Source: Candidatus Hodarchaeota archaeon (lineage in GTDB: Archaea; Asgardarchaeota; Heimdallarchaeia; Hodarchaeales; YT1-039). From it: DNA of 6,943 nt. The notes under the pieces are model-generated. The model saw only the letters and a list, made by a program, of their open reading frames with translations, did no database searches and was not told the DNA's origin. Made by a program: the position numbers and the translations under genes. The DNA lies in NCBI GenBank assembly GCA_016840025.1, contig JAEOTF010000009.1:1-6943 (forward strand), given 5' to 3'. Numbering within the stretch: the first letter of the stretch is position 1; each line of letters begins with the position of its first letter. This document shows positions 4,041-6,943 of the stretch, piece by piece.

Positions 4041-4085
4041 TCTTTTAATCCCCGATACTAGTTAGAATGGTTTTAGAATAATAAT

Positions 4086-4142: not shown

Positions 4143-4586
4143 ATGAAGAAAACTTCGTTAAACACACGAAAATTCGGCCATTTTCCTAATTTTCTCTTAT
4201 TTACTGTTCCTGGAACCATTTTAATCGGTATTTTAATGTTTGTTCAGGACTGGAGTGAGGGTATTGCCCTGAGTGCCCTGATTCTCTGGATTATTTTCAT
4301 TTCTGTTCCGGGTACTTACTTTGGGATAGAATTCTTTGTTATTCTCTTCAAACAAATGTTTGAAACTGCTGTTGATTATGCAGCATTCTTTGTTGCCTTC
4401 ATTGTATCTGCAATAGTCTTTTTTGCAGTTGGGGAGTATGGACTTATGCCCTTTATTTCGGATAACGATGAAAGTCTCTTGGATGAACCTCTTGCGGCAA
4501 TTTTTATCATTCTTGTTCCTGCATTTACTGTTGCCGTTTTTGTAGGTCGATGGTTTAATATACAGCGTTCTGAATCACGTAGATAA
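4143..4586 (+). CDS. multi-pass membrane protein, hypothetical (first gene of GTPase operon)
   Basis: This 147-residue protein has a basic N-terminus (MKKTSLNTRK) and about four hydrophobic segments at roughly 17-34, 45-69 (long, possibly a re-entrant or two short helices), 79-97 and 117-137. A short acidic loop (SDNDESLLDE, 106-115) lies between the last two, and the tail is basic (QRSESRR). By the positive-inside rule both ends would be cytoplasmic and the acidic loop outside. There is no signal peptidase site or known motif, and I do not recognise the family. Only 12 bp separate its stop from the small-GTPase start, so the two are very likely co-transcribed. Since that GTPase has no lipid-anchor cysteine, this protein is a plausible membrane docking partner, but that is inference. 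Start ATG at 4143 has only a weak purine-rich GGTG before it. Confidence 0.85.
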   Translation: MKKTSLNTRKFGHFPNFLLFTVPGTILIGILMFVQDWSEGIALSALILWIIFISVPGTYFGIEFFVILFKQMFETAVDYAAFFVAFIVSAIVFFAVGEYGLMPFISDNDESLLDEPLAAIFIILVPAFTVAVFVGRWFNIQRSESRR

Positions 4587-4598
4587 CTGGTTAAGCTA

Positions 4599-5147
4599 AT
4601 GAGATCCTCCACATCATCTCGTCTTGGGGATTATGCCTTCAAGATCATTACATTAGGTTCCCCTGCAGTAGGAAAAACCTCCTTAATTAGACGATTTGCT
4701 GATAACAAATTTCTGGAAGATTACAAGACAACATTGGGAGTAGATATTACCACAAAAAATATCATCCTTAAAAAAGAAATTTACGTCACTCTCCTATGTG
4801 TCGATCCAGGTGGACAGGACTTTTTTGGAAAATTACGTCCTGTTTATTATCGGGGCGCTCGCGGCGCCGTTATTTTGTTTGATCTTACCCGCCGCTCTAC
4901 GTTTGAGGATTTACATCATTGGAAGGCTGAATTTCAGAGTGAAGTGGGTGAAGATATTCCACTCTCAATCGTAGGGAATAAATCTGATCTTGAACCTCAA
5001 GTTACTGATGAAGAGATAAAAGAAGTAGCAGACTTGTTTAAATGTAAAAAGTGGTATCTTACTTCAGCAAAGACTGGGGCAAACGTAATTAATGTTTATC
5101 ATGATCTTGCTCTCGAAATTCTTTTTGAAAAGGAAAATAACACCTAA
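4599..5147 (+). CDS. Rab/Ras-like small GTPase
   Basis: A 182-residue single-domain GTPase of ordinary Rab/Ras length. G1 is GSPAVGKTS (20-28), G2 YKTTLGVDI (42-50, Thr45 for magnesium), G3 DPGGQ (69-73, catalytic-type Gln73), G4 NKSD (127-130), G5 TSAK (155-158). The Rab-like ring TLGVD after switch I and RPVYYRGA after switch II place it nearest Rab/Ras rather than Arf. Two oddities: the position equal to Ras Gly12 is Pro22, and switch II has PGG where Rab/Ras has TAG, with no Trp before the Asp (VDPGGQ). The tail (FEKENNT) lacks any cysteine, so eukaryotic-style prenylation is not possible. The gene sits between a membrane protein (12 bp upstream) and a MinD-like ATPase (21 bp downstream). 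ATG at 4599 has no clear ribosome site but places the P-loop normally. The cellular target is unknown. Confidence 0.95.
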   Translation: MRSSTSSRLGDYAFKIITLGSPAVGKTSLIRRFADNKFLEDYKTTLGVDITTKNIILKKEIYVTLLCVDPGGQDFFGKLRPVYYRGARGAVILFDLTRRSTFEDLHHWKAEFQSEVGEDIPLSIVGNKSDLEPQVTDEEIKEVADLFKCKKWYLTSAKTGANVINVYHDLALEILFEKENNT

Positions 5148-5168
5148 TTTAATCGGTAGTGTGTCTAG

Positions 5169-5939
5169 TTGCGAAAAATAGTCCTTCACTCATACAAGGG
5201 AGGAACAGGAAAAACAATTCTAAGCGCTAATATTGCTGCTGAGGCCGCTCGACGTGGTTTTAAGGTGGGCTTGTTTGATCTAGACTTTCGTGCTCCTTCT
5301 TTGACAACTTTGTTCAATTATGAGCCAGAATGTTTTCTGAATGATTACTTTAAGGGGACTTTCACTCTTGATGAGATTCTTATCGATGTTTCTTCTGTAT
5401 ATGACTTAAAAGGTCGCTTTTTTATTGCGTTCTCTTCACCCGAGATTCAAGTTATTCGTAAAATGATTGCAAAAAGTGGAACATACCACATTGATATGCT
5501 TAGAGCCTTATTGAGCGCAGTCAGAAAGTTACAGGAAGAAAATAAATTTGACCTCTTGGTTTTCGATTCTTCTCCTGGGATTGAACCATGGAGTGTAAAT
5601 GCTATAATTGCTGCAGATATCACTTTTATTGTGTTGAAACCCAGTTTATTGGATCGAATAGGAACTAAACGAATGTTGATGGGCATCTATCAACAGCTTC
5701 CTAAGGATAAAAGCTTCTATCTGATTTATAACAGATTTATAGCGGGAACCGATGTTAAAAGCATTGGTAATTACCCAGTACAAGCTACGATACCCTGTTA
5801 TTGTGATCATGTTATTGCAGCTGATGAAGAAATCTTTGTCCTAACAAAACCAGATCACCCATTCAGTCAAGACATCAGAAAGCTGGTTGATAATGTCGAT
5901 GAACGGTTTTCCTTACATCCCAAGGAGGAAGTTGCATGA
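5169..5939 (+). CDS. MinD/ParA-family ATPase (deviant Walker A, SIMIBI class)
   Basis: A 256-residue ATPase. The deviant Walker A YKGGTGKT (9-16) carries the signature Lys10 that contacts ATP across the dimer in MinD/ParA proteins, plus Lys15. Switch I is DLDFRAPS (37-44), Walker B-like LLVFDSSPG (129-137), and the adenine-contacting YNR is at 187-189. The family forms ATP-dependent dimers that position division sites, chromosomes, flagella or chemosensory arrays. The Lys10 position and lack of a C-terminal amphipathic membrane helix are visible; the tail after FSQDIRKLVDNVDERF is short and hydrophilic. No basic DNA-binding patch is obvious. CYC at 210-212 sits where relatives usually have PYD-type sequence; this is not the CxxC of Mrp/ApbC iron-sulphur carriers. 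Start TTG at 5169 gives the expected distance to the P-loop. It overlaps the next gene by 4 bp and follows the small GTPase by 21 bp, so a role paired with that GTPase is likely. Confidence 0.93.
   Translation: MRKIVLHSYKGGTGKTILSANIAAEAARRGFKVGLFDLDFRAPSLTTLFNYEPECFLNDYFKGTFTLDEILIDVSSVYDLKGRFFIAFSSPEIQVIRKMIAKSGTYHIDMLRALLSAVRKLQEENKFDLLVFDSSPGIEPWSVNAIIAADITFIVLKPSLLDRIGTKRMLMGIYQQLPKDKSFYLIYNRFIAGTDVKSIGNYPVQATIPCYCDHVIAADEEIFVLTKPDHPFSQDIRKLVDNVDERFSLHPKEEVA
5922..5928 (+). promoter_or_regulatory. strong Shine-Dalgarno for the last operon gene
   Basis: AAGGAGG lies within the final codons of the MinD-like gene, 7 nt before the ATG at 5936. It is the only near-perfect ribosome-binding site in the operon and fixes the start of the downstream gene; with the ATGA overlap it predicts efficient re-initiation. 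Confidence 0.8.
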
Positions 5940-6502
5940 CCCCTCACTCTACTGAAGACACTCAAGTTACTATGATTCTATCATCATTTGATGAAAAAAG
6001 AGGACCTGTGCCACTGGCAATGACAAAAAACTGGATTGAACTTTTCACCGATGATCAATTACTCAATTTAGTCATGTGGGCAGAAGTAAGCGTAGGTGCC
6101 TTCGATAGACGAGCAGGATTGGGTATTAGGGAAAGGAATCTACAAGGACCTCTTCAAATACCTGTGCAACCCAATTTAGTGGGTTTAATTTGGCCATGGA
6201 TGGCACCAGCCCCTGAATCCACCCGTTTGAAACGAGGAAGACTTCATTGCTTGATCTTGATATTCCCAAGAACGTTGATGGCGCGTCTTCTTGAGAAAAT
6301 ACCTATAATTCAGGAATATCTATCCATTAATATTATTACTGAAAGGGGGATTACTCAAGATGAACTGGAAAGCCATACAAATAGAATTGGTAAACTTGTT
6401 TTAGAAGAAGAAGATTATGTTCAACGTGCTCTAGATGTGGCCTTAAATTCAACTTCTAGAAGGAGCACTGATGAAGAGAAGCGCGAAAACCATTCCTTTT
6501 AA
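5936..6502 (+). CDS. uncharacterised 188-residue protein, possibly longin-like
   Basis: I do not recognise this family with confidence. The protein is soluble, with no signal peptide and no clear membrane helix. A predicted beta strand (VTMILSSF, 11-18) is followed by DEKRGPVPLAM (19-29); a strand then a Gly-Pro turn is how several longin/roadblock-fold GTPase regulators begin. Residues 33-50 look helical, a second strand is LHCLILIFP (103-111), and a helical, acidic C-terminal half follows (about 113-170), ending in a charged disordered tail (RRSTDEEKRENHSF). Two Trp in IWPWMAPAP (85-93) are distinctive. Its ATG overlaps the MinD-like gene (ATGA, 5936-5939) and has a strong ribosome site, so co-expression in the operon is secure. 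A regulator or adaptor for the GTPase or ATPase is a guess from context and the weak fold resemblance. Confidence 0.88.
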   Translation: MTPHSTEDTQVTMILSSFDEKRGPVPLAMTKNWIELFTDDQLLNLVMWAEVSVGAFDRRAGLGIRERNLQGPLQIPVQPNLVGLIWPWMAPAPESTRLKRGRLHCLILIFPRTLMARLLEKIPIIQEYLSINIITERGITQDELESHTNRIGKLVLEEEDYVQRALDVALNSTSRRSTDEEKRENHSF

Positions 6503-6701: not shown

Positions 6702-6943
6702 GTGCTTATCCGAAAGGCCTTTAAATTCCGCATTTATCCGAGCAAAGCCCAGCGCACTCTTTTAAATAAAACGTTTGGGTGTTGTCGGTTCATCTACAAT
6801 TCAATGTTAGCAGAACGGCAAGAAGTCTATGAAAAATATAAAGAGGAGCGGGAACCCCTTAAGAGTTATCCGTATAAGACCGAAAAGGACTACAAAAGGG
6901 ACTTCGCGTTTTTGAAAGAAGTGGACTCAATCGCCTTACAACA
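6702..6943 (+). CDS. tnpB: RNA-guided nuclease TnpB, N-terminal part (3' end beyond window)
   Basis: Eighty codons are present before the window ends. The N-terminus is the classic TnpB/OrfB opening: FKFRIYPSKAQRTLLNKTFG (7-26), then CCRFIYNSML and, after a basic helix (QEVYEKYKEER, 40-50), LKEVDSIALQ (71-80) where relatives have a near-identical stretch. TnpB is the RuvC-type nuclease of IS200/IS605 elements that uses a guide RNA from the element's right end and is the ancestor of Cas12; the RuvC and zinc-finger parts would lie to the right and cannot be judged here. Start GTG at 6702 gives MLIRKAFKFRIYP, the usual beginning; no ATG or TTG occurs in frame between it and the stop near 6627. 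There is no clear ribosome site. Whether the gene is intact is unknown. Confidence 0.92.
   Translation, partial: MLIRKAFKFRIYPSKAQRTLLNKTFGCCRFIYNSMLAERQEVYEKYKEEREPLKSYPYKTEKDYKRDFAFLKEVDSIALQ

Follow-up and report, generated by a model that had tools for sequence, protein, structure and literature searches.

What might a eukaryote-like small GTPase do when its gene lies beside that of a MinD-type ATPase? The question is raised by a 6,943-nucleotide stretch of DNA (the window) from a Candidatus Hodarchaeota archaeon (contig JAEOTF010000009.1), in which four consecutive open reading frames (ORFs) lie on the + strand: P1 (4143..4586), a membrane protein of 147 amino acids (aa); P2 (4599..5147), a Rab-like small GTPase of 182 aa; P3 (5169..5939), a ParA/MinD-superfamily ATPase of 256 aa with a TTG start; and P4 (5936..6502), a longin-fold protein of 188 aa and the presumed partner of P3. 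ORF calling places 12 base pairs (bp) between P1 and P2 and 21 bp between P2 and P3, with a 4-bp overlap of P3 and P4, and these coordinates bear out the layout described in a sequence-only reading of this DNA, which had proposed a membrane-linked positioning or polarity module. The single match to a simple TATA-like pattern (TTAATATA, at 4085) falls within the 102-bp gap before P1 (4041..4142, + strand), a region shared with the divergent gene P5, and direct reading of the inner gaps reveals little room for promoters. Judged by spacing only, P1-P4 may form an operon. The part of this arrangement that recurs elsewhere is the pair P3-P4, an ATPase encoded next to a longin-fold partner.

P3 matches the Pfam families AAA_31 (PF13614; 1.1e-14, 55.1 bits versus 27) and the CbiA type (PF01656; 37.6 versus 25.4 bits). 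A deviant Walker A motif, KGGTGKT, with its signature lysine is invariant in the 15 aligned P3 rows, and a PC.C motif is also conserved. The closest relatives are 76% and 69% identical and the next about 40%. Among solved structures, the family profile of P3 scores best with archaeal MinD-1 (1hyq, 3.7e-17), followed by a site-determining protein (4v03, 8.5e-17). P3 falls well short of the NCBIfam cut-offs for MinD (minD_bact and minD_arch, 45.9 versus 212.9 and 37.8 versus 201.75 bits) and does not reach that for ParA_partition (53.8 versus 180 bits). The earlier description of a MinD-like ATPase is thus retained at the level of the ParA/MinD superfamily, supported by PF13614 and the Walker A motif, and not at the level of MinD itself. 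The membrane-bound gradient cited alongside it is not supported for P3, as P3 scores below the MinD cut-offs and lacks a clear membrane-targeting tail. In the alignment no long extension follows the last conserved stretch of the family; this stretch has amphipathic character (moment up to 0.71), yet all seven 11-mers taken from the 30 C-terminal residues are net hydrophilic. A hydrophobic segment at residues 143-161, just over threshold, was taken as a buried strand.

P4 matched nothing in Pfam (to 0.5) or NCBIfam (to 0.1), and hence no curated longin model. Its predicted structure, of middling confidence, contains the longin fold (strands 1-2, a helix, strands 3-5, helices), which supports the earlier suggestion of a longin-like protein. 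The leading structural matches are Lst4, a Loki longin and chains of the FLCN-FNIP2, GATOR1 and C9orf72 complexes; the longin match spans residues ~10-160, and longins rank above MglB. Neither Pfam nor a winged-helix profile detected a winged helix in P4, whose C-terminus is modelled as helices, and no DENN module was found after the longin within the 188 aa. A family search returned three relatives besides P4 itself, and a search of 227 Asgard genomes gave two weak matches (4.1e-4 and 8.2e-4); by eye, L081 resembles a two-longin protein. Relatives of both P3 and P4 occur on contigs of 2508 and 44364 bp from the same sources, and the listed sizes suggest that they are located together.

The pairing of such an ATPase with a longin recurs among Asgard archaea. 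A P3 profile at 1e-25 matched 107 of the 227 genomes, and out of 150 places listed we surveyed 80 among the first 83 (54 genomes, hand-counted, several of which contribute more than one region; further lower-ranked matches exist). Partner counts refer to the 80 Asgard ATPase ORFs from outside the window that entered the tree. A longin-profile gene lies directly downstream of the ATPase in 32 of these, with a gap between -8 and +13 bp in 24 cases, and 30 of the 32 genes also match a winged-helix profile (L147 and L220 are longins without a winged helix by profile; the L147 partner is cut by a contig end). Upstream of the ATPase there is a winged-helix-profile gene in 22/80, a gene that by eye is P4-like with a winged-helix-like end in 8/80 (a winged-helix profile match in three, L205, L208 and L210 only, the L205 gene being truncated), and in one (L196) another gene with a winged helix and, by eye, a longin-like front. 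In three ORFs the ATPase is fused to a GTPase. A longin partner 200 bp downstream (L151) was counted as 'other' by cut-off, as were winged-helix matches on the opposite strand (L179, L181 and L171). At 74 of 80 loci of another set, distinct from the Asgard survey, the ATPase has a neighbour from one linked family. In Bathyarchaeia a winged-helix protein takes the part of the partner. For Loki, the model of the partner combines a longin with a winged helix (Pfam Fuz_longin_1 sub-threshold, 6.2e-4). We consider it firm that the MinD-longin pair belongs, as a variant, with a MinD-winged-helix gene pair that is widespread in archaea. Neither a MinD-longin nor a MinD-longin-winged-helix cassette was found in the titles and abstract openings returned by searches of openly licensed papers.

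The same partners bear on another possibility, a role of P3-P4 as a ParA system for DNA segregation or linked to transcription, unrelated to membranes or GTPases. Many P3 relatives have winged-helix partners, and because of this the cargo or landing site in those relatives probably consists of DNA or of a complex bound to it. The usual functions of longins lie in membrane traffic or GTPase regulation, which counts against a role confined to DNA. The search of P4 also gave no winged helix, so that in the window clade the partner seems to have lost any direct role at DNA. ParA systems with neighbouring DNA-binding adaptors are described, for example AspA of pNOB8 (PMC9178275); AspA and a pNOB8 centromere-binding protein stand low among the winged-helix matches (ranks 46 and 45, E 0.027). 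On this balance we regard a purely DNA-directed system in the window as unlikely.

An ATPase tree of 92 rows, from which two 414-aa second ORFs (L182 and L187) were left out, places P3 in a window clade of three rows (support 100/100). The P4-like upstream partners carry the landmarks of P4 in order: ..GP.., then ..QGPLQIPV / ..RGILQIP.., then ..R..R.G..CL. From such motifs, common descent of P4 and these partners is a lead only. Their profile (A6) gave no match to the Thor/Loki longin profile (A4), and searches of PDB sequences with A4 and A7 returned no longin. At five loci (L201, L208, L210, L211 and L215) the ATPase and its P4-like upstream partner are followed by a gene of 719-724 aa, which at L208 encodes a DUF460 protein (PF04312, 4e-35). 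L182 and L187 (genomes G053 and G054) each have two consecutive MinD-type genes, of which the second (414 aa) has a degenerate-looking P-loop; the C-terminal domain of the L182 copy has no Pfam match. By eye the C-terminus of these second ORFs looked longin-like, but neither Pfam nor PDB sequence searches supported this and it was not used. Among loci L001-L080, a MobA-like family gene lies near MinD in 43/80 and an HTH_45 family gene in 43/80, labels that derive from Pfam on the L001 copies only.

How the GTPase relates to this pair is a separate matter. P2 matches Ras (PF00071, 1.5e-37) and contains G1 (GSPAVGKT), G3 (DPGGQ), G4 (NKSD) and G5 (SAK); its best solved match is a Thorarchaeota Rab (7ezb, 4.2e-30), followed by eukaryotic Rabs. 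The assignment as a Rab/Ras-like GTPase is therefore upheld. The comparison drawn with MglA is not, as P2 is Rab-like and P4 matches longins above MglB. P2 ends in EKENNT and lacks a C-terminal prenylation cysteine, as PMC10933270 describes for the small GTPases of MK-D1. At E ≤ 1e-20, P2 matches 226 of 227 Asgard genomes. Each such genome holds some thousands of genes, and we estimate that a GTPase is to be expected beside any given Asgard gene in ~1/25-50 cases. Given this richness in Ras-like GTPases, their adjacency to MinD in one contig is not remarkable by itself. MK-D1 has 74 related small GTPase sequences, according to the same source (PMC10933270).

GTPases near MinD-type ATPases were sought with one Rab-type profile and a motif pattern, by which odd GTPases may be missed. 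Across ~754 kb of MinD-flanking Asgard DNA, five matches were obtained outside the window. In three, the ATPase continues into a fused GTPase domain (L195, L197 and L200, in genomes G048, G053 and G054), recognised as Pfam Roc in L197 (3.9e-20) and L200 (1.1e-19) and by the Rab-type profile in L195 (5.4e-12); the L195 and L197 ORFs run into contig ends, and the L200 ORF is complete at 902 aa. The other two are separate genes, one for an Arf/Ras-like GTPase tail to tail with MinD and ~20 bp away (L196), the other for a Ras-family GTPase 2.3 kb from MinD (L189). The fusions and L196 fall inside a 26-row clade (support 100/99) whose remaining 22 rows have longin partners. The fused GTPase thus occurs at the place where its clade relatives have a longin partner gene, which supports GTPase input to these ATPases. 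From sequence comparison it is plausible, not proven, that GTPases feed into such MinD-type ATPases. By profile, a separate same-strand GTPase gene beside MinD was found in none of the 80 Asgard regions. The GTPase/MinD-type pairing anticipated by the sequence-only reading is thus seen in three fusions and one tail-to-tail gene of one clade, whereas the P2-P3 adjacency itself is not conserved. The fusion genes of L195, L197 and L200 are preceded by that of a ~220-aa membrane protein with, by eye, a transglutaminase-like Cys-His-Asp pattern; Pfam gave no match to the L195 copy.

P1 is a membrane protein, as had been proposed, with four hydrophobic, predicted transmembrane segments (residues 16-34, 40-58, 79-97 and 117-135). 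It has no Pfam match above cut-off; EMP70 (0.023, 13.8 versus 27 bits) was taken as a chance match. The 227 Asgard genomes contain two weak matches to it, L083 (7.4e-4) and L084 (8.3e-4), and these adjoin genes that by eye are MutY- and Lrp-like. P1 may be an anchor or a passenger, and we consider it unlikely to be the membrane anchor of the module.

We propose a model in which a ParA/MinD-type ATPase, P3, and its dedicated longin-fold partner, P4, make up a cassette of two genes, which would be a stripped-down form of the Asgard MinD plus longin-winged-helix gene pair. P3 would switch between an ATP-bound dimer and a monomer, and the partner would set the site or the timing of ATP hydrolysis. 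In the window, P4 would exert this control over P3 without a DNA-binding part; GTP-bound P2 would dock on the longin P4 and thereby gate P3, and P1 would offer a possible membrane site. The steps differ in strength. The partner probably binds the ATPase; that the longin reads a GTPase is a real possibility, if less than evenly balanced, and that this GTPase is P2 is somewhat more doubtful. P2 and P1 are the weakest links of the mechanism. We give the model as a whole, a P3-P4 cassette gated by P2-GTP with P1 as a possible membrane site, just under an even chance, and any positioning or polarity role of the module is our inference.

Several observations weigh against this model. On the side of the pair, the structural models of P4 and of the Loki partner are of middling confidence and were built from 4 and 6 sequences; at E ≤ 0.001 Foldseek matched P4 to one structure and the Loki partner to no structure. 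Profile comparison by hhalign gave a weak match of P4 to the upstream P4-like partners (A6; E 0.019, probability 2%) and no match to the Thor/Loki longins (A4), the window clade joins the Thor/Loki longin-partnered and P4-like groups with weak support (83/68), and 14 of the 80 Asgard ATPase ORFs have no partner as counted here. The P3 tail, judged by its residues, is not clearly a membrane binder. On the side of the GTPase, the ~754 kb of flanking DNA holds, by the Rab-type profile and apart from the fusions, two GTPases (L196 and L189) where ~13 would be expected at the MK-D1 density, an estimate that uses the MK-D1 genome size. One P2 relative is 69% identical, on a 1271-bp contig, and the others at most 52% (best 120 of 1591 matches); the contigs listed for these 120 do not include the 2508- and 44364-bp sizes that bear the P3 and P4 relatives. 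Around the ten Asgard loci that match P2 best, regions of 3.9-13.5 kb contain no MinD or longin by profile.

These data also bear on a simpler explanation, that the P3-P4 pair is the whole functional unit and that P1 and P2, in a genome rich in GTPases, came to lie in its operon by chance. P3-P4 linkage recurs and P2-P3 linkage is not seen elsewhere; with P2-like GTPases abundant in Asgard genomes, P2 unlinked at other places and P1 represented by two weak relatives in a MutY- and Lrp-like setting, P1 and P2 may be passengers. Of the four-family order that the sequence-only reading put forward for checking across Asgard genomes, only the ATPase-longin pairing was seen to recur. The genes are packed closely on one strand, 12 and 21 bp apart, which speaks against chance, and the MinD-GTPase fusions together with L196 indicate that a GTPase can belong to such a unit. 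We judge this explanation to have a substantial probability, somewhat below one half.

A second GTPase offers a further alternative. The divergent gene P5 (2784..4040, - strand) encodes a Rag/Arf-type GTPase of 418 aa (Gtr1_RagA 3.9e-24) with extra N- and C-terminal regions, and its best solved match is a Lokiarchaeal RagA-like GTPase (8yl2, 1.7e-33). P4 could be a regulator of P5, in the manner in which the FLCN/Lst4 and NPRL2 longins act on Rag GTPases, with MinD as an effector arm. The structural matches of P4, led by Lst4 and including the FLCN-FNIP2 and GATOR1 chains, fit this idea, as does the start of P5 and of P1-P4 from a common 102-bp region. We nevertheless regard it as very unlikely. 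The extra N-terminal part of P5 comprises ~95 aa, and by eye its C-terminal region is roadblock/longin-like.

The proposed P3-P4 cassette may be set beside known systems. FlhF-FlhG of bacterial flagella pairs a GTPase of the signal recognition particle (SRP) type with a MinD-type ATPase, as the window pairs a GTPase with such an ATPase; FlhF is not Ras-like and no longin is known to be involved. MinDE, ParAB, SegAB, AspA-ParB-ParA of pNOB8 and PomXYZ, like P3-P4, couple an ATPase of the deviant Walker A type to a partner encoded next to it, and ParA-adaptor systems exist in archaea (PMC9178275). In contrast to these, the partner of P3 has a longin fold, a Rab-like GTPase gene stands in line, and the MinD/ParA cut-offs are not reached. 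MglA-MglB of Myxococcus and the archaeal MglAB operons likewise have a Ras-superfamily GTPase and, close to it, a protein with a fold of the roadblock/longin group, and longins are related to MglB (PMC3521125). The small GTPase, roadblock and longin proteins of Asgard archaea represent the fold families found in the window, including a Rab-like GTPase without a C-terminal cysteine; in MK-D1 the GTPase genes lie generally outside operons with roadblock, longin or TRAPPC3 genes, and the word ATPase is absent from the main text of this source (PMC10933270). The eukaryotic Rab/Rag regulators Lst4, FLCN-FNIP, NPRL2-NPRL3, MON1-CCZ1 and FUZ-INTU have the longin fold in common with P4. Npr2/3 carry C-terminal winged helices (PMC3521125), which resemble the Asgard longin-winged-helix partners, while in P4 no DENN or winged-helix part was found.

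The role of the many Asgard Rab- and Rag-like GTPases and longins bears on the origin of eukaryotic membrane traffic, and the gene layout of MK-D1 makes it hard to match GTPases to their regulators (PMC10933270). The recurrent pair of a MinD-type ATPase and a longin(-winged-helix) protein, with GTPase fusions in one clade, supplies named, expressible partners. Should GTPases indeed steer these ATPases, a single module would combine an engine for positioning, known from prokaryotes, with a switch of eukaryote-like type. A broader generalisation is that Asgard archaea possess a class of switchable, longin-partnered ParA/MinD-type ATPases whose site of action is steered by Ras-superfamily GTPases, through the longin or through a Roc-type fusion; the window would then represent a form in which Rab-like GTPase, longin, ATPase and membrane protein are co-transcribed and the winged helix has been dropped for a membrane site. 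We consider this speculative and, in its full extent, rather unlikely.

The flanks of the window contain two further genes. acsA (319-2352) encodes a protein 84% identical to an Asgard AcsA (genome G058) over its whole length, residues 1-677, and this, together with the names of protein matches, points to an Asgard lineage. The G+C content of acsA is ~53-61% in the 3' half (~300-1400) and 41-45% over most of the 5' half, with 28-29% in the adjoining intergenic stretch; because the Asgard match spans the whole protein, acsA is not an obvious chimera despite this shift. Around the ten Asgard loci that match acsA best, regions of 10-16.5 kb contain no profile match to P5, P1, P4, longin, MinD or GTPase, and the gene order of the window thus differs from theirs. 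Rfam at gathering scores gave no match within the window. At the other end, the start of an IS605-type OrfB gene (6702-6941; HTH_OrfB_IS605 9e-22) runs off the window end.

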